Source: Desulfohalobiaceae bacterium
GTDB lineage: Bacteria; Desulfobacterota; Desulfovibrionia; Desulfovibrionales; Desulfothermaceae
Reading direction: 5' to 3'
DNA: 55,984 nucleotides
Assembly: GCA_027013815.1 (NCBI GenBank)
Contig: JALWFY010000038.1
Span: 1 to 55,984 of the forward strand
The notes under the pieces were generated by a model. That model worked only from the letters and a program-made list of their open reading frames with translations, did no database searches and had not been told where the DNA came from. Positions within the stretch are counted from its first letter, which is position 1. Each line of letters starts with the position of its first letter. Position numbers and translations under genes: made by a program. Shown here piece after piece: positions 17,879 through 46,967 of the stretch.

Positions 17879-18466
17879 TTATTTTCTATATTTTATTATA
17901 CGGGCTGGATTCCCAACTACAACTGCATATTTCGGGACAGGAGACAGGACTATACTTCCTGCCCCAATTACTGCACCCATATCGATATTAGCAGCCACTA
18001 TGGCCCCATTTCCTATCCAGACGTCCTCCTGTATCTCTAGCTCCAAAAATCTACCCCCCTGTTCTTTAATAGGTATATCTGTCCTGTTAAAAAAATGTTG
18101 TTCTATCCCACTAAGTATGTGTACTCCTGTTCCTATTAATACATTATTACCTATTTTCACATGACCTATATCACACTTAGGACCAATGTAAACACCTTTT
18201 CCAATCCTTACTCTAGGGTCAGAAAAAGTAGTACAAAAACCAATACAACAATCAATTAAATCATCCCCTGTAACCCACTCCAATAAAGCCTTTCTAATAT
18301 TCTCTCCTAAAAAACCTGGGATAAGAGCAACCCACTGCATTATATAGGCAAAGGCCCTCCTTTTTTCAAAAATAGAAGAACCAATAAGATAAATCCCGAA
18401 AAATGGAAGTGTAATTACTTTAAATAACTGATAAATTGCTTTTTTGATTATCCTTTTATAGTTCAT
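17879..18466 (-). CDS. Left-handed beta-helix (hexapeptide) acyltransferase
   Basis: 195 residues from the ATG at 18466; a GTG at 18490 would add eight residues, and neither start has a good ribosome site. Hexapeptide repeats of the WbbJ/maltose-acetyltransferase type fill about 75-190 (RIGKGVYIGPKCDIGHVKIG, then NNVLIGTGVHILSG, WIGNGAIVAANIDMG and the closing VVVGNPARIIK). The N-terminal 60 residues are hydrophobic and basic and may attach to the membrane. It probably O-acetylates a sugar of the nearby glycan. It lies divergent from the glycan genes beginning at 20514, and the restriction-modification cassette has entered the region between them. Confidence 0.85.
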   Translation of the reverse strand: MNYKRIIKKAIYQLFKVITLPFFGIYLIGSSIFEKRRAFAYIMQWVALIPGFLGENIRKALLEWVTGDDLIDCCIGFCTTFSDPRVRIGKGVYIGPKCDIGHVKIGNNVLIGTGVHILSGIEQHFFNRTDIPIKEQGGRFLELEIQEDVWIGNGAIVAANIDMGAVIGAGSIVLSPVPKYAVVVGNPARIIKYRK

Positions 18467-18652
18467 TTTATAATAACACACCAATCTCACTGTTACAATT
18501 AATCATGTCCTTTTCATATATTTTTTTTAGAAAAATTACAATACAAAAACCCAACATAGAATTATAACTTGATAACTGCTCTTTTTTTTTGTACATTCTA
18601 GTTAGAATGATTAAATTAATCCTAAGTTAGCCAAATATAAGGAATGAATTTA

Positions 18653-19522
18653 ATGCCAGAATTATGGACAAAAGAGAAAGAGATTGAATTTTTTAGACAA
18701 GCCTTAGAAAATTTTGCAGAACCTGAGCAACTTTTCTATATTTCAGATGATGGGAAATATTATGCCTATTGGCCAAAGCCTTACAAAGGGAAAAAGTCTA
18801 CTCTCCAAAGCAGAAATGCCCTGATTGGTAATTTTACTGAAAAATATTCAGTAGATTTATTAAATAATTTTGCAAAAGATTATAACTTACATGCCGTACA
18901 AGGAGTAATTTGTAGAGAAATAGGTCTAACTCCTCAATCTCCATCAGATGTTGCAATTTGCAAAGTTAAAAGACGAGAACAAAGAGCTGAAGACATTATA
19001 GCTATTTTTGAAGTAAAAATGTCAATTGTATGGAATTGGGAATATAGAGACGGAAATCTAATCTGTATTGGAGATTATAAAACTCATCAAGGAAATCCTG
19101 GATTATTACGTTCCGATTCTATGCTAAAAGCTATTGGAAAAAGTATAAATATAAGAGTCTCAGGATACAAGGCATCGAAAATTCCAATAATCATTTTAGG
19201 AAACACTCCAATAACGAATAGCTATTTTAAAAAAGTTGACCATTTGAAATTGGCTGGCATCATACAAGGTTTTTGGTTAACTAATCCAAAGCCATTAGAT
19301 AATAATGGAGAAAATATAAAATCTACTGAACGTAAGGGATTTATACGATTTGATTCTATTCAAGAACTATATGCTGCTTTAGATAAGTTATTAGGCAAGG
19401 AAATGGAATTCTTTTCTAGCATGAAAAGCAAAAAGGAACTAGGTCAGATTATAGAGATAGCAAATAGAGAAGCCACCTACGAACAAAAGGCCGAGAAATT
19501 TCTAAATTTAATAAGGGAATAA
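18653..19522 (+). CDS. Type II restriction endonuclease (PD-(D/E)xK type)
   Basis: 289 residues. I chose the ATG at 18653 because AAGGA (18639-18643) is well spaced for it and abuts the earlier ATG at 18644. A PD-(D/E)xK-like centre is visible: SPSDVAICK followed about 20 residues later by IIAIFEVKMSI, where the E and K are in a hydrophobic strand. No specificity can be read. The paired DNA methyltransferase starts three bases after its stop, and both genes fill an integron cassette, so it is the nuclease half of a mobile restriction-modification system defending against foreign DNA. Confidence 0.82.
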   Translation: MPELWTKEKEIEFFRQALENFAEPEQLFYISDDGKYYAYWPKPYKGKKSTLQSRNALIGNFTEKYSVDLLNNFAKDYNLHAVQGVICREIGLTPQSPSDVAICKVKRREQRAEDIIAIFEVKMSIVWNWEYRDGNLICIGDYKTHQGNPGLLRSDSMLKAIGKSINIRVSGYKASKIPIIILGNTPITNSYFKKVDHLKLAGIIQGFWLTNPKPLDNNGENIKSTERKGFIRFDSIQELYAALDKLLGKEMEFFSSMKSKKELGQIIEIANREATYEQKAEKFLNLIRE

Positions 19523-19525
19523 ATA

Positions 19526-20431
19526 ATGGCGTTTAAACGTTCAGGAACAAAGACCAGCGCATTTGGAACACCAGGAAGGATTAATCACGATTCAACAAAA
19601 TTTTACAATACTCGTCTTTATGAAGGGATAATTCAAGCCAAGAAAGTAGAATATATTGAAAATCCAATTGATAATAAATACTTAAATAAGATTTTTTGCA
19701 AGTCAAGCGAATCTATGTCAGAATTGCCTGATAATAGCATTCATTTAATGATTACTTCTCCTCCATATAATGTTGCAAAGGAATATGATGAAGATTTATC
19801 CCTAGAAGAATATCTACAATTTCTTAATAGAGTATGGAGAGAAACTTATAGGGTGCTTGTTCCTGGGGGTAGGGTTTGTATAAATGTGGCAAATTTAGGC
19901 AGGAAACCATATATTCCTTTACACAGTTATATTATTCAAGGAATGCTAGAAATCGGCTATTTAATGAGAGGAGAGATAATTTGGAATAAAGCAGCAAGCG
20001 CAAGCCCATCAACCGCGTGGGGTAGTTGGTTATCTGCAGCTAATCCAGTTTTGAGAGACATTCATGAATATATTTTAATTTTTTGTAAAGAAACTTTTTC
20101 AAGAAAAAGAGGAGATAAAAAAAATACTATCAAGAAAGAACAGTTCCTTGAGTGGACAAAAAGCGTATGGACATTTCCAGCTGTATCAGCGAAAAAAATT
20201 GGGCATCCTGCCCCCTTTCCTGAGGAATTACCATATAGATTAATACAACTCTATTCTTTTAAAGATGATGTAGTCTTAGATCCTTTTGTTGGTAGTGGGA
20301 CAACCTGTTTGGCAGCACTAAAAACAGGACGTAACTATGTAGGATATGATAATAATCCTGAGTACGTGAGATTGGCAGAGAACAGGATTAGGGCCTATAC
20401 AAGGCAAGGACGATTATTTGAAAATGGCTAA
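19526..20431 (+). CDS. Type II DNA methyltransferase, beta-class (probably N4-cytosine)
   Basis: 301 residues. Catalytic motif IV TSPPYN (about 76-81) comes before the AdoMet-binding motif I LDPFVGSGTTCLAAL (about 252-266), the order of beta-class enzymes. The SPPY form is commonest in N4-cytosine methylases, but N6-adenine cannot be excluded. HPAPFPEELPYRLI just before motif I is typical of this group. It protects host DNA from the nuclease encoded three bases upstream. Its TAA stop lies within the attC R'' site, a common arrangement for a gene that fills an integron cassette. Confidence 0.92.
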   Translation: MAFKRSGTKTSAFGTPGRINHDSTKFYNTRLYEGIIQAKKVEYIENPIDNKYLNKIFCKSSESMSELPDNSIHLMITSPPYNVAKEYDEDLSLEEYLQFLNRVWRETYRVLVPGGRVCINVANLGRKPYIPLHSYIIQGMLEIGYLMRGEIIWNKAASASPSTAWGSWLSAANPVLRDIHEYILIFCKETFSRKRGDKKNTIKKEQFLEWTKSVWTFPAVSAKKIGHPAPFPEELPYRLIQLYSFKDDVVLDPFVGSGTTCLAALKTGRNYVGYDNNPEYVRLAENRIRAYTRQGRLFENG

Positions 20432-20509
20432 CATGCGGGTAACTTGACCGCCATTCCGCTGGGGCCTCCGGCCTTGCTCCATAGCGGCAAGTGACCCTGG
20501 ACGTTATTA
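20426..20509 (+). other. attC site (59-base-element type) of the restriction-modification cassette
   Basis: R'' GGCTAAC lies at the left and R' GTTATTA at the right, cut after the G at 20503. Inside, GGGTAACTTGACCGC pairs with GCGGCAAGTGACCC with an unpaired extra base, the extrahelical-base feature of attC recognition. The loop contains a small GGCC/GGCC hairpin. It is strikingly G+C-rich against the AT-rich genome, which marks it as foreign. Confidence 0.82.
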
Positions 20510-20513
20510 ACAA

Positions 20514-23081
20514 ATGAAAGACAAGACATATTTATTTAAAATTTTCCCCAGCCAAACTTCCTATGAGCAAAATTCCCTACTGAGCATAGGCATCCCATTA
20601 AAAAAAAATTTGATATTTGATAAAAATAAAATCCAGATTTCAGATGAAAAACAAAATGTATATCCATGTGAAATAATACCACTGTGTTACTGGAACAATA
20701 AAAGCATTAAATGGTCCCTTTTAAATATATGTCTTCCTCCATTATCTTCCCCAACAACCCTTTTCCTCAATCTCCTGGACAAAGAGAGAAATAAGGATAA
20801 ATTTTCAGGTCTGCAAGTTGATGTAGATAAGGACATTATTAAAATACATACAAGGGAACGTGAATTTATTTTGCACAGGCATAGCCCATGCATATTTAAA
20901 GACCTTGAATTAGACTTGGAATTTATAAAAAGTAATGGAGAGATAAAAAGATTTAGGGACGTAAAAAATAAGACCTTTAGAGTGCTGTCTAAAGGAAAGA
21001 TAAAGACAGACATTGAAATAAAAGGACAACTAATATTTTCTAAAAATGAAGTATTAAATATTAGATTTATTATATCATTTTTTTATCATTCAAATACCAT
21101 AAAAATGGAGGTTGAGGTACATAACCCTAACAGTTGCAACCATGCTGGGGGGAAATGGGACCTTGGAGACAAGGGAGCTATCTATTTTAAGGACTTTTCA
21201 TTATTATACAAGTTTAAGACTGTACCTTGTCAAATAAAATATACCCAAGATATAAAAAAATCCTTTGATCTAATATCACGAGACATAGATGGGTTGAAGA
21301 TTTATCAGGACTCCAGTGGTGGGGAAAACTGGGATTCTCCAAACCACATTGATCACAGTGGTAATCTTTGTGTTAAGTTTAAGGGATTTTATATAAAAGA
21401 AATAAAACAGGACAAGATTATAAATAAATCTCAAGGTGCTAGGGCCAACCCATTGGTAATGGCTAGAGGAGAGAGTTGGATCTGTGTATATGTTAAGGAT
21501 TTTTGGGAAAACTTCCCTAAAGCTATAGAAGTTAGCAACCAATATATTCGTATATCTTTATTTCCAAAGGAATCTAAGACCTTTTTTGAACTTCAAGGGG
21601 GAGAGAAGAAGACACATACCATATTTGTGGATTTTGATTCAGAGGACAAGGCAGGAGATATTTTAGGTCTAATTTTCCCACCTTTATTTAAAATAAACCC
21701 TGAATGGATACGTGAGAGTAGCGCCCTTCCCTATTTTTTACCAGAATCAGAAGACCAAAATAAAACCTATCTCTCTTATATAAAAAATATTATCCATGGA
21801 CCTAATTCTTTTTTTAAAAAAAGAGAACAAATAGATGAATATGGATGGAGAAACTTTGGAGACCTGTATGCAGACCATGAAGCAGTACATCATAAGGGAG
21901 AAAAACCCTTTATTTCCCATTATAACAATCAATATGATTTTTTATATGGGGCAATTATTAATTTCTTGAGGTCTGGTGAGTCAAAATGGTTTGACTTAGC
22001 AGAACCACTTGCAAGACACTTAATTGACATTGACATATATCACACAGACAAAGATAAATCTGCATATAATCATGGTATGTTCTGGCATACAGACCACTAT
22101 TTGGAGGCAAAAACCGCTACCCATAGGACTTATTCTAAATTAAATAAAACAACAGGTGGGGGGCCATCCAATGAACACAATTATACTACAGGGCTCTTAC
22201 ACTACTATTTTTTAACTGGTGATATTCTAGCCAAAGAAGCAGTAATAGAGTTGGCCCAGTGGGTAATAAATATGGATAGGGGAGATAAGACCCTATACGC
22301 AATATTTGACCAAGGTCCAACAGGACTTGCATCTCAAACCGTTGATCCAATGTATCATAGGCCAGGACGTGGTGCAGGAAATTCTATAAACGCATTAATT
22401 GACGCATATGTACTTACAAATCAAAGGAGATTCCTTTTTAAGGCAGAAGAAATTATTAGACGAACTATTCACCCAAAGGACAATATAAAGAAATTGGGAC
22501 TAGACAATCCTGAATTTAGGTGGTCATATCTAGTCTTTCTGCAAATCCTGGATAAATATATTTCTTTAAAATTAGAGTTAGATGAAAAAGATTGGATGTG
22601 TTTTTACGCAATAGAATCTCTTATTCACTATGGGAGATGGATGTTAGAAAATGAAGTACCATATATGGACGTACTTGATAGGGTAGAAATACCAACAGAA
22701 ACATGGCCAGCACAAGATATTAGAAAGGCATATGTACTAAATTGTGTATCAAAATACTTAGAAAATAACGAAAAAGAACTTTTTTTAAAAAAGGCTAGAT
22801 TCTTTTTTGATAGGTGTATACAGGATTTATTATCCTTTGAAACAGCATACCTTACCAGACCTATGGTACTTTTATCAACCTATGGGTCTCAGCAAGCATA
22901 CTTTGACAAAAAGATGTATAATAACTTTATATTTGTACTAAAACACAATTATTCCTTTGCACGTCCATCTAGGTTTGTTCCGCAAAAATATAGATGGAAA
23001 CAAACTTTTAAAAAAAATTTAAAGATATTTACAAGGGAACTACTTAGGATCATAAAGGATAAAACAAAAGCCATTTTCTAA
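20514..23081 (+). CDS. Exo-rhamnogalacturonan-lyase-like (PcRGLX/YetA-like) protein
   Basis: 855 residues, no signal peptide. The N-terminal part (SLLSIGIPLKKNLIF, KSIKWSLLNI) resembles the RIFT-barrel start of PcRGLX/YetA-like proteins, and HAGGKWDLGDKGAIYFKDFS (about 208-227) is a strong motif of that group. The C-terminal half (about 430-760) is helical with many Trp, His and Tyr residues (GWRNFGDLYADHEAVH, HNYTTGLLHYYFLTGD), fitting an alpha/alpha toroid that cleaves polysaccharide. It lies at the head of a glycan operon and touches the next GT4 gene by one base, so it may trim the product made here rather than plant pectin. Activity is unproven. The integron cassette ends 10 bases before its ATG. 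Confidence 0.68.
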   Translation: MKDKTYLFKIFPSQTSYEQNSLLSIGIPLKKNLIFDKNKIQISDEKQNVYPCEIIPLCYWNNKSIKWSLLNICLPPLSSPTTLFLNLLDKERNKDKFSGLQVDVDKDIIKIHTREREFILHRHSPCIFKDLELDLEFIKSNGEIKRFRDVKNKTFRVLSKGKIKTDIEIKGQLIFSKNEVLNIRFIISFFYHSNTIKMEVEVHNPNSCNHAGGKWDLGDKGAIYFKDFSLLYKFKTVPCQIKYTQDIKKSFDLISRDIDGLKIYQDSSGGENWDSPNHIDHSGNLCVKFKGFYIKEIKQDKIINKSQGARANPLVMARGESWICVYVKDFWENFPKAIEVSNQYIRISLFPKESKTFFELQGGEKKTHTIFVDFDSEDKAGDILGLIFPPLFKINPEWIRESSALPYFLPESEDQNKTYLSYIKNIIHGPNSFFKKREQIDEYGWRNFGDLYADHEAVHHKGEKPFISHYNNQYDFLYGAIINFLRSGESKWFDLAEPLARHLIDIDIYHTDKDKSAYNHGMFWHTDHYLEAKTATHRTYSKLNKTTGGGPSNEHNYTTGLLHYYFLTGDILAKEAVIELAQWVINMDRGDKTLYAIFDQGPTGLASQTVDPMYHRPGRGAGNSINALIDAYVLTNQRRFLFKAEEIIRRTIHPKDNIKKLGLDNPEFRWSYLVFLQILDKYISLKLELDEKDWMCFYAIESLIHYGRWMLENEVPYMDVLDRVEIPTETWPAQDIRKAYVLNCVSKYLENNEKELFLKKARFFFDRCIQDLLSFETAYLTRPMVLLSTYGSQQAYFDKKMYNNFIFVLKHNYSFARPSRFVPQKYRWKQTFKKNLKIFTRELLRIIKDKTKAIF

Positions 23082-27223: not shown

Positions 27224-27246
27224 ACTAAAATTAAAAGAGGTTAGCT

Positions 27247-27447
27247 ATGACAAAAATTGAGCAGGTTATTTCTTCAATAGAATTACTATCTGAGCAAGAA
27301 TTTGCTAAATTAAGAGATTGGATTATTGAAAGAGATTTGGAAAGATGGGACAGGCAAATAGAAAGGGATTCAGAAGCTGGGCGATTAGATTTTTTAATTA
27401 AGGAAGCCTTTGATGAAAGAGAAAATGGTAAATTAAAAGAGATATAA
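27247..27447 (+). CDS. Antitoxin of a RelE/ParE-type module
   Basis: 66-residue acidic, mostly helical protein (MTKIEQVISSIELLSEQEFA, ERWDRQIERDSEAGRLDFLI). The arrangement resembles small addiction-module antitoxins in which a short helical N-terminus precedes a flexible toxin-binding tail with the conserved D..AGRLD stretch. The toxin gene starts on the next base after its stop. It should neutralise the toxin by binding it and may repress the operon, although no clear DNA-binding fold is visible. Its ribosome site is supplied by flanking DNA. Confidence 0.8.
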   Translation: MTKIEQVISSIELLSEQEFAKLRDWIIERDLERWDRQIERDSEAGRLDFLIKEAFDERENGKLKEI

Positions 27448-27702
27448 ATGCACCGGACAACAGATCGATTTTGGAAGTGTTTTGAAGATCTACCTTATGA
27501 TATTCAAAAATTAGCAAAGAAAAGTTTTGACTTGCTTAAAACAGATCCTTTACATCCCTCTTTGCATTTTAAAAAAGTGGGGAAGTTTTGGTCTGTAAGA
27601 ATAGGGCTCAATTATCGGGCACTTGCTGTTCAGGATGAAGAAGGATTTATTTGGGTTTGGATTGGGAATCATAAAGAATATGACAAGATGATAAAAAAAT
27701 AA
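27448..27702 (+). CDS. RelE/ParE-superfamily toxin
   Basis: 84 residues with the compact RelE/ParE pattern: two helices (DIQKLAKKSFDLLKTDPLHP), strands with the SVRIGLNYRAL arginine region and a closing IGNHKEYDKMI. The family includes ribosome-dependent mRNA interferases and gyrase poisons, and the sequence does not decide between them. The stop codon TAA directly precedes and touches the attC R'' site. Such modules are frequent integron cassettes and may stabilise cassette DNA. Confidence 0.88.
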   Translation: MHRTTDRFWKCFEDLPYDIQKLAKKSFDLLKTDPLHPSLHFKKVGKFWSVRIGLNYRALAVQDEEGFIWVWIGNHKEYDKMIKK

Positions 27703-27760
27703 GCTAACAATTCATCCAGCGAACGACGTATTACGCCGCCTCTGAATCTAGACGTTATAT
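27702..27760 (+). other. attC site (59-base-element) of the toxin-antitoxin cassette
   Basis: Exactly 59 bases from R'' AGCTAAC to R' GTTATAT. The left arm AACAATTCATCCAGCG and the right arm CCGCCTCTGAATCTAGACG can pair (TTCA with TGAA and flanking bases), with mismatches typical of attC sites. The order TAACAATTCA...TGAATCTAGACGTTA is very close in layout to classical cassette sites such as that of aadA. Confidence 0.85.
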
Positions 27761-45500: not shown

Positions 45501-46967
45501 TTAAAAATTAAAAATAATCTTTATCTTTTGGACGATCTCCTTTCTAATAATAGGGAACAAAATAGATATAAAAGACAAATAAACCACAAGTCCCAAGAGA
45601 GAAGAAGAAATTAAAACAGTAAAAAATTTAAGTTCAATAACAAGTAATATTTTTTTTACAGTTAAGACTACTAAATATGAGCACAAAGAAGAAATAAATA
45701 TAGGTAATAACAACAAGAAAAATCTAAAAGGATTAACCTTTAACAAATAAAAAAAAGTTAAAAACAAAACTACAAAAGAAGGAAGCACTGAAAGCAACAT
45801 TCCAAAAGCCACACCTAAAAGACCATAAAAATGGCCTAACAAACCAACAACTATAATAGTGAAAATTAAGACTATTAAAGATATTTTATAAGGTATATCT
45901 GGCCTATTTTTACAATAAAAAATATAACCTGTTGGCTGATCTAACAACTTCAATGCAGCACAAATACATAAAATTTGTAGAGGAATAACAATGGGTAACC
46001 ATTGATTTCCCCAAAAAAGAGGAACAACAATATCAGAAGTGCCAGCCAAAATAAATAATATTGGATAGCAAATTAGACAGACATATTTGACTGCATTGAC
46101 ATAGTTATTGAAAAGTTTTTCATTATCATCTTGAACCTCTGAAAATGTAGGAAATAAAACTTCTCCTACTGGCCTAGAAATACGATCTAACACTAAGTGT
46201 GGCAAACGATAGGCAAATTCATAAAGGCCAAGTTGATAACTGCCTAACAATCGCCCTACCAAAAAATAATCCACATTTTGTTTAAGATAATTGGTAATTC
46301 CAAAAAGCCAGGAATAAAAACCAAAGCGAAAGAGATATCGAAAAGAATCTTTATGAAAGGCAAATTTAGGAAACCAACGCCCCATAGAAAACCACAAAAC
46401 CAGATTATAAAATAAGGTATTTACTATCATCCCGATGACTAAAGCCCAATAAGTAAGCCCAGTAAAGGCCACCAAAATAATAGCCGTCGTAGATTCAAGT
46501 AAAATGGCAATACCACGAATTATATTAATTTTTTTAAATTGTAAATGCTTGCTCGCCAAAGTTTGGGGGATTAAACCGAGAATCTGAAGAAGAGGGATAA
46601 AGGAAATAATCTGAACAACCGGCTCAACCCGAGGCTCTTTCCAAAAATACGCGGCTAGAGGCGCAGAAAGAAATATTGCCAGAAATATTATAAATCTCAC
46701 TGTACAGGAAAGCCAAAAAGCCGTACTCAAATCATCTTCCGAAATCTCCTTTTTTACAATAATCCCGGACCCAAAACCCAAAGAGAGGGCAGTTATCAAA
46801 AATTCTTGATACAGCAGGGCCATGCCAAAGAGACCGAAGTCAGAAGGCCTTAGCGCCCGGGCAAGATATATGCTCGCCCCTAGGCGGACTAGGGTTTGCC
46901 ATCCTCCACCTACAATCTGCCATAAAGCACTGCGTCCAGCCCGTTGGGCTAATGTTTGGTCTGACAT
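45501..46967 (-). CDS. Wzx-type oligosaccharide flippase (MOP superfamily)
   Basis: 488 residues with 12-14 membrane helices. The N-terminus (RAGRSALWQIVGGGWQTLVR, then LGASIYLARALRPSDFGLFG) is typical of WzxC-like lipid-linked repeat-unit exporters. It should move undecaprenyl-diphosphate-linked repeat units to the periplasm for polymerisation and ligation. It is the first gene of the long minus-strand glycan run, next to the repeat island. Its first 60 or so codons are clearly richer in G+C than the rest and than all neighbours. Confidence 0.9.
   Translation of the reverse strand: MSDQTLAQRAGRSALWQIVGGGWQTLVRLGASIYLARALRPSDFGLFGMALLYQEFLITALSLGFGSGIIVKKEISEDDLSTAFWLSCTVRFIIFLAIFLSAPLAAYFWKEPRVEPVVQIISFIPLLQILGLIPQTLASKHLQFKKINIIRGIAILLESTTAIILVAFTGLTYWALVIGMIVNTLFYNLVLWFSMGRWFPKFAFHKDSFRYLFRFGFYSWLFGITNYLKQNVDYFLVGRLLGSYQLGLYEFAYRLPHLVLDRISRPVGEVLFPTFSEVQDDNEKLFNNYVNAVKYVCLICYPILFILAGTSDIVVPLFWGNQWLPIVIPLQILCICAALKLLDQPTGYIFYCKNRPDIPYKISLIVLIFTIIVVGLLGHFYGLLGVAFGMLLSVLPSFVVLFLTFFYLLKVNPFRFFLLLLPIFISSLCSYLVVLTVKKILLVIELKFFTVLISSSLLGLVVYLSFISILFPIIRKEIVQKIKIIFNF

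Follow-up and report, generated by a model that had tools for sequence, protein, structure and literature searches.

A predicted restriction-modification gene pair with the anatomy of a single integron cassette in a glycan locus of a Desulfohalobiaceae bacterium

Gene organization and cassette ends

The DNA analysed in this study is a stretch of 55,984 nucleotides of the genome of a Desulfohalobiaceae bacterium (assembly GCA_027013815.1, contig JALWFY010000038.1), hereafter referred to as the window. Between the genes for a hexapeptide acyltransferase and a PcRGLX-like glycan protein, the window carries two genes, herein named R and M, that are enclosed together with a single attC site in a unit with the ends of an integron gene cassette (Table 1). 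The opening point of this cassette lies between G and TT (18627-20503), and its left core GTTAGCC is the exact reverse complement, 1.8 kb apart, of the R'' heptamer GGCTAAC of its own attC, as had been pointed out in the first-pass annotation of the sequence. The unit is compact, with R starting 17 bp into the cassette [note that the true start of R is probably the ATG at 18653, judging from the sequence] and with the TAA stop codon of M (20429-20431) lying inside R'', an overlap that had likewise been noticed. Of the 100 open reading frames on both strands of the window, no more than two, counted as ORFs or ORF pairs, stand between such heptamers and have R'' at their stop codon. Because both are also matches of the attC models (see below), a chance origin of the bracket around R and M is very unlikely. 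Neither transposase, phage gene nor target duplication was seen at the junctions of this cassette.

Table 1. Features of the two cassettes and their flanks in the window
Feature	Position	Strand	Description	Basis or remark
Left flanking gene	17879..18448	-	hexapeptide acyltransferase	PF00132; orthologue at the same place in sister genome G001
Left junction core G^TTAGCC	18626..18632	+	host G, then remainder of cassette R'	exact complement of R''
Integron gene cassette	18627..20503	+	R, M and one attC; 1877 bp	heptamers, attC model, absence from G001
AAGGA	18639..18643	+	likely ribosome-binding site of R	sequence
R	18644..19522	+	predicted PD-(D/E)XK type II restriction endonuclease	292 aa from 18644
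M	19526..20431	+	N4/N6 DNA methyltransferase	SPPY and DPFVGSGTT motifs
attC	20426..20509	+	R'' 20426-20432; extrahelical A 20447	right core G^TTATTA 20503-20509
Right flanking gene	20514..23081	+	PcRGLX-like glycan protein	PF21346; start codon 10 bp past junction
Second lone cassette	27241..27754	+	toxin-antitoxin; 514 bp	GTTAGCT 27240-27246 / AGCTAAC 27702-27708
Putative antitoxin	27247..27447	+	66 aa	ATG directly after cassette core
ParE-like toxin	27448..27702	+	84 aa	PF24732 E 9e-7, above gathering score
attC of second cassette	27702..27760	+		right core G^TTATAT

M was identified as a DNA methyltransferase by both Pfam (PF01555, E 3.9e-49) and PADLOC (MTase_II, 448.7 bits). R belongs to no family in Pfam, NCBIfam or PADLOC, its sequence matches no solved chain, and no homologue was found in the plasmid and phage collections. 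In the alignment of R homologues D99 and E120-x-K122 are invariant, and the predicted model of R (pLDDT 88) is closest to BsaWI, NucC, AgeI, PfoI, PspGI and SgrAI (Z 9-11), with a VIA-align Z of 11.1 to BsaWI (rmsd 4.5 over 167 residues) and 10.7 to AgeI; Foldseek alone gave weak matches, none with E below 0.001. Since D99, E120 and K122 are kept and the predicted model lies nearest to BsaWI and the related enzymes, R is likely a PD-(D/E)XK nuclease. It resembles the BsaWI/AgeI/SgrAI/Cfr10I-Bse634I group in predicted fold (VIA-align Z 8-11) and in the D...ExK motif, but differs in showing no sequence match to the solved chains. With the gene for a PF01555 methyltransferase adjoining that of the nuclease, for which fold and motif come from the predicted model, the pair has the composition of a type II restriction-modification (R-M) system, in agreement with the initial reading of these two genes. 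We infer that R would cleave, and M would protect, one common DNA motif.

attC models, a second cassette and the integron integrase

After rejoining of R', the attC (20426-20509) folded into one hairpin (dG -20.9 kcal/mol, z -3.65; none of 200 shuffles was as good) that includes the R''/R' pairing, an inner stem and the single extrahelical base predicted from the letters alone. A search of Rfam gave no match for attC, which is uninformative. Two covariance models were constructed using attC sites of arrays, some of these arrays lying beside integron integrases in four relatives (G006, G011, G020 and G026) and others within a subset of the homologous R-M loci, with the window excluded from both models. 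The cruder model R1, for which RNAalifold missed the outer stems, gave 11.2 bits on the attC of the R-M cassette and was superseded by model R2, based on 49 attC sites of other genomes with the stems (23 pairs) written in by hand; the R2 alignment shows strong covariation as compared with shuffles and slides. R2 matched exactly 20426-20509 with 29.1 bits (E 1.9e-5 in the window with filters off, 8.8e-4 genome-wide), a modest score against the 40-58 bits of the best arrays. The covariance-model search proposed in the first-pass annotation thus detected the attC at the very place expected, by use of a home-made model and not that of IntegronFinder. With filters off, R2 identified in the whole window this attC plus one other site and nothing more. 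A weak match at 46610-46652 (15.9 bits), found by R1 only, was dropped after R2 did not confirm it. Given that R2 with filters off detected no attC left of 18626 in the window, there is no upstream cassette.

The R-M cassette had been described as standing alone in the glycan locus, but a toxin-antitoxin gene pair was found in a second lone cassette 6.8 kb away (7.2 kb from attC to attC), flanked by genes for a glycosyltransferase and a VanZ-like protein. The stop of its ParE-like toxin shares one base with R'', and the 66-aa putative antitoxin has no Pfam family. Its attC was detected by both R1 (25 bits, E 3.8e-5 over 338 kb) and R2 (19.6 bits, E 0.0086 in the window, filters off).

The absence of an integrase, also claimed at the outset, holds for the window and its contig (C38), on which no intI match was found, but not for the genome: an intact intI is encoded on another contig (C121:240-1169; 424.7 bits, above the curated cut-off). 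Its product matches the Vibrio IntI structure (PDB 2A3V) over nearly the full length with E 1.6e-81, including the IntI-specific insertion, and the gene extends to the end of the contig, the side on which attI and an array would be expected. A damaged, degenerate intI copy is located on C106, and contig-end sequence is common to C121 and C106 (L009 and L010).

The uninterrupted locus in a sister genome and homologous R-M loci

A genome of the same genus (G001; about 50-80% identical by gene, 43% complete and with frameshifts) carries the locus in collinear order, sigma-54 regulator, response regulator, acyltransferase, PcRGLX, glycosyltransferase, AsnB, glycosyltransferase and VanZ, with neither the R-M nor the toxin-antitoxin genes. 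The acyltransferase and PcRGLX-like orthologues are directly adjacent therein, with an intergenic gap of about 119 bp at the R-M place. At the toxin-antitoxin place the gap is about 36 bp, as compared with the 557 bp that it measures in the window. Of the empty site that the first-pass annotation had suggested seeking in relatives, G001 thus supplies an uninterrupted target locus, as attG insertion would predict, whereas the target sequence itself is not conserved at base level at that distance. Because AACAAATG just 5' of the PcRGLX start codon is common to G001 and the window, the right junction keeps the native leader of the PcRGLX-like gene.

We then surveyed the best 80 R-encoding loci in a GTDB scan of bacteria and archaea, of which 72 were testable for cassette ends. 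M adjoins R in nearly all of the 80. Homologous R-M pairs with their own, different and self-matching cassette ends were identified in ten other genomes of several phyla. A tight R'/R'' bracket encloses R and M in 10 of the 72 loci, window included, against 0.9-1.9% after swapping of flanks, a comparison that covers nine of the ten other genomes; most of the R homologues (about 60 of 72) carry no cassette ends. The loci with a tight bracket belong to Desulfobacteraceae, Bacteroidales, another member of Bacteroidota, other deltaproteobacteria, Nitrospirota and a contig of Archaeoglobaceae. A wider heptamer scan, which marked 16 of the 72 loci on a background of 11.5%, was superseded by this tight test. 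In other phyla the ends of the homologues differ, but each pair matches itself and stands at the same places. Together with the attC model and G001, these ends support the original reading of the R-M genes as an integron cassette.

Five of the bracketed loci (L040, L043, L051, L053 and L061) carry an attC also on the left side and thus lie within arrays. In a further three loci (L039, L049 and L060) an attC is present 3' of M, but no left core matches it. The homologue nearest to the window (L078; about 85% for R, 91% for M) has the ends GTTAGGC/GCCTAAC, its left core being at the same distance from R as in the window and followed by the common leader AATATAAGGA; an attC of the same kind is located about 490 bp beyond its M. 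Near-copies occur in two different phyla, namely L051 in Nitrospirota and L053 in Desulfobacterales. On the tree of R plus M the cassette-borne members require at least six changes of state, and therefore cassette carriage is clustered, yet repeatedly gained or lost. L091, on a contig binned as Archaeoglobaceae, holds the R-M pair in a cassette that is flanked on each side by an attC-like site.

Route of insertion and relation to known cassettes

We consider it highly probable that the R-M unit was inserted by IntI as a single cassette at an attG-like site and is expressed from a host promoter. An integron integrase would have joined the attC of a circular R-M cassette, its folded strand serving as the IntI substrate, to the chromosomal attG-like (secondary) site AATCCTAAG^TTATTAACAAATG, in which the target G^TTAT lies just 5' of a glycan-operon gene, and would have left a single cassette without attI or a neighbouring attC. 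The toxin-antitoxin cassette would have entered likewise at AAAGAGG^TTATATAAA, 6.8 kb downstream, and precise insertion implies the empty alleles AATCCTAAGTTATTAACAAATG at the R-M site and AAAAGAGGTTATATAAAAAAC at the toxin-antitoxin site. As only 17-26 bp precede R, leaving no room for a cassette promoter, R and M would most likely be transcribed from a host promoter upstream of 18626; a scan for promoter consensus gave nothing above background. Three lone-cassette targets in this genome, TCCTAAG^TTATTAA and AAAGAGG^TTATATA in the window and AAAAGAG^TTATAAC on contig C181, all contain GTTAT, in agreement with GWTMW/GNT, the IntI1 secondary-site consensus (PMC4618277).

The cassette might instead be the last survivor of a former array rather than a single insertion, as decay of arrays is a common reading of CALINs and the genome holds other attC remnants on C151, C192 and C29, but this is improbable because no trace of an attC is left on the left even with filters off, the flanking genes are directly adjacent in G001, and a second insertion of the same kind occupies an equally clean site 6.8 kb off. 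Still less probable is the entry of the R-M genes by transposon, phage or homologous recombination, with the heptamers and the hairpin being due to chance or to an unrelated terminator-like repeat: R-M genes are mobile by many routes and most of the homologous pairs lie outside detectable cassettes, but such entry is at odds with the attC-model match of both bracketed ORFs or ORF pairs of the window, with the different self-matching ends of homologues in other phyla and with the lack of any transposase, phage gene or target duplication at the junctions. Least of all do we expect a misassembly in which attC-like repeats brought the contig of a cassette into the glycan locus. The genome is a draft of 219 contigs, and assemblies are known to break at attC sites (PMC9024848), but the left junction has only the 7-bp core in common with any attC, which would not suffice for a misjoin, coding sequence continues on both flanks, and two separate junction pairs would be required.

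Single-cassette insertion at an attG-like site is itself known. The insertion of single cassettes at attG or secondary sites, short G^TT sites outside the integron, is attributed to Loot et al. 2024 (as cited in PMC11023631 and PMC12901181), the source of the concept of attG, and to Francia et al. 1993 (as cited in PMC10127599). The cassettes described herein are likewise single and outside an integron, with targets that fit GWTMW/GNT. This work, as cited, is mostly experimental or concerns E. coli, Vibrio and Xanthomonas, whereas the present case is natural, comparatively supported, from Desulfovibrionales and with two cassettes in one locus. The R-M cassette also resembles a SALIN (PMC12690207), one attC plus cassette with intI and attI not nearby, inasmuch as C38 gave no intI match and the next attC, 7.2 kb off, is that of another lone cassette, as judged with our own models and not the IntegronFinder software. 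It is unlike the SALIN as described there in that the same genome encodes an intact intI, on another contig, and therefore the cassette may have retained its mobility in trans. Genes for DNA methylation and restriction recur as cargo of cassettes (archaeal integrons, PMC9668308; Xanthomonas, PMC12444791), but in the present case one R-M family was followed across several phyla with exact ends, its R lying outside the family models.

With attG-site cassettes, SALINs and R-M cargo all on record, and the mechanism known, the locus is thus a well-documented natural case and not a new kind of element. To these precedents it adds a clean natural example in which an attC supported by an independent model is combined with an empty site from comparison and a twin insertion in the same locus, and also a family of R-M cassettes that crosses phyla. 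Cassette insertion outside integrons, hitherto shown mostly in the laboratory, is seen here in nature and twice in one locus. A defence system thereby stands in an ordinary metabolic locus with no visible mobile element, where defence-island searches would miss it; one R-M family moves between phyla as a cassette, including a contig binned as archaeal; and a fold assignment is given to R, a protein outside all searched family libraries.

A tentative and rather doubtful idea is that, in this family, addiction-type cargo (R-M, ParE-like and PIN-domain toxins, HigBA-like) would persist outside arrays in dispersed, independent cassettes, using host promoters and punishing its loss, so that the chromosome would be colonised by single cassettes; the ORF-less, mostly attC-ended repeats of G006 (see below) would be its extreme form. 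That such cargo may be enriched among lone cassettes draws on five or six cases. Lone cassettes elsewhere in the genome, a draft in 219 contigs, were sought with the attC models only. On C181 (L134, 269-976) a lone PIN-domain toxin cassette was detected with the exact ends GTTAGAT/ATCTAAC at the target G^TTATAA and no attC on its left, and on C91 (L024, 1437-2225) a HigBA-like cassette with the exact ends GTTCGCT/AGCGAAC, 3' of which lie a further attC-like stretch and a HicB-like gene. Other attC-bearing places were found on C29 and C192, and degenerate attC-like remnants on the minus strand of C151 (L018, about 1200-1560). Several scattered model matches in G006, which belongs to the same family, were left out of the count of gene cassettes, since they represent a single repeat family whose copies mostly lack a matching left core. 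This repeat of about 186 bp without an ORF is dispersed in at least 40 copies (L186-L215), most of which end in an attC-like hairpin and some of which do not, some copies lying inside a larger dispersed repeat; it looks like a non-coding, MITE-like integron cassette.
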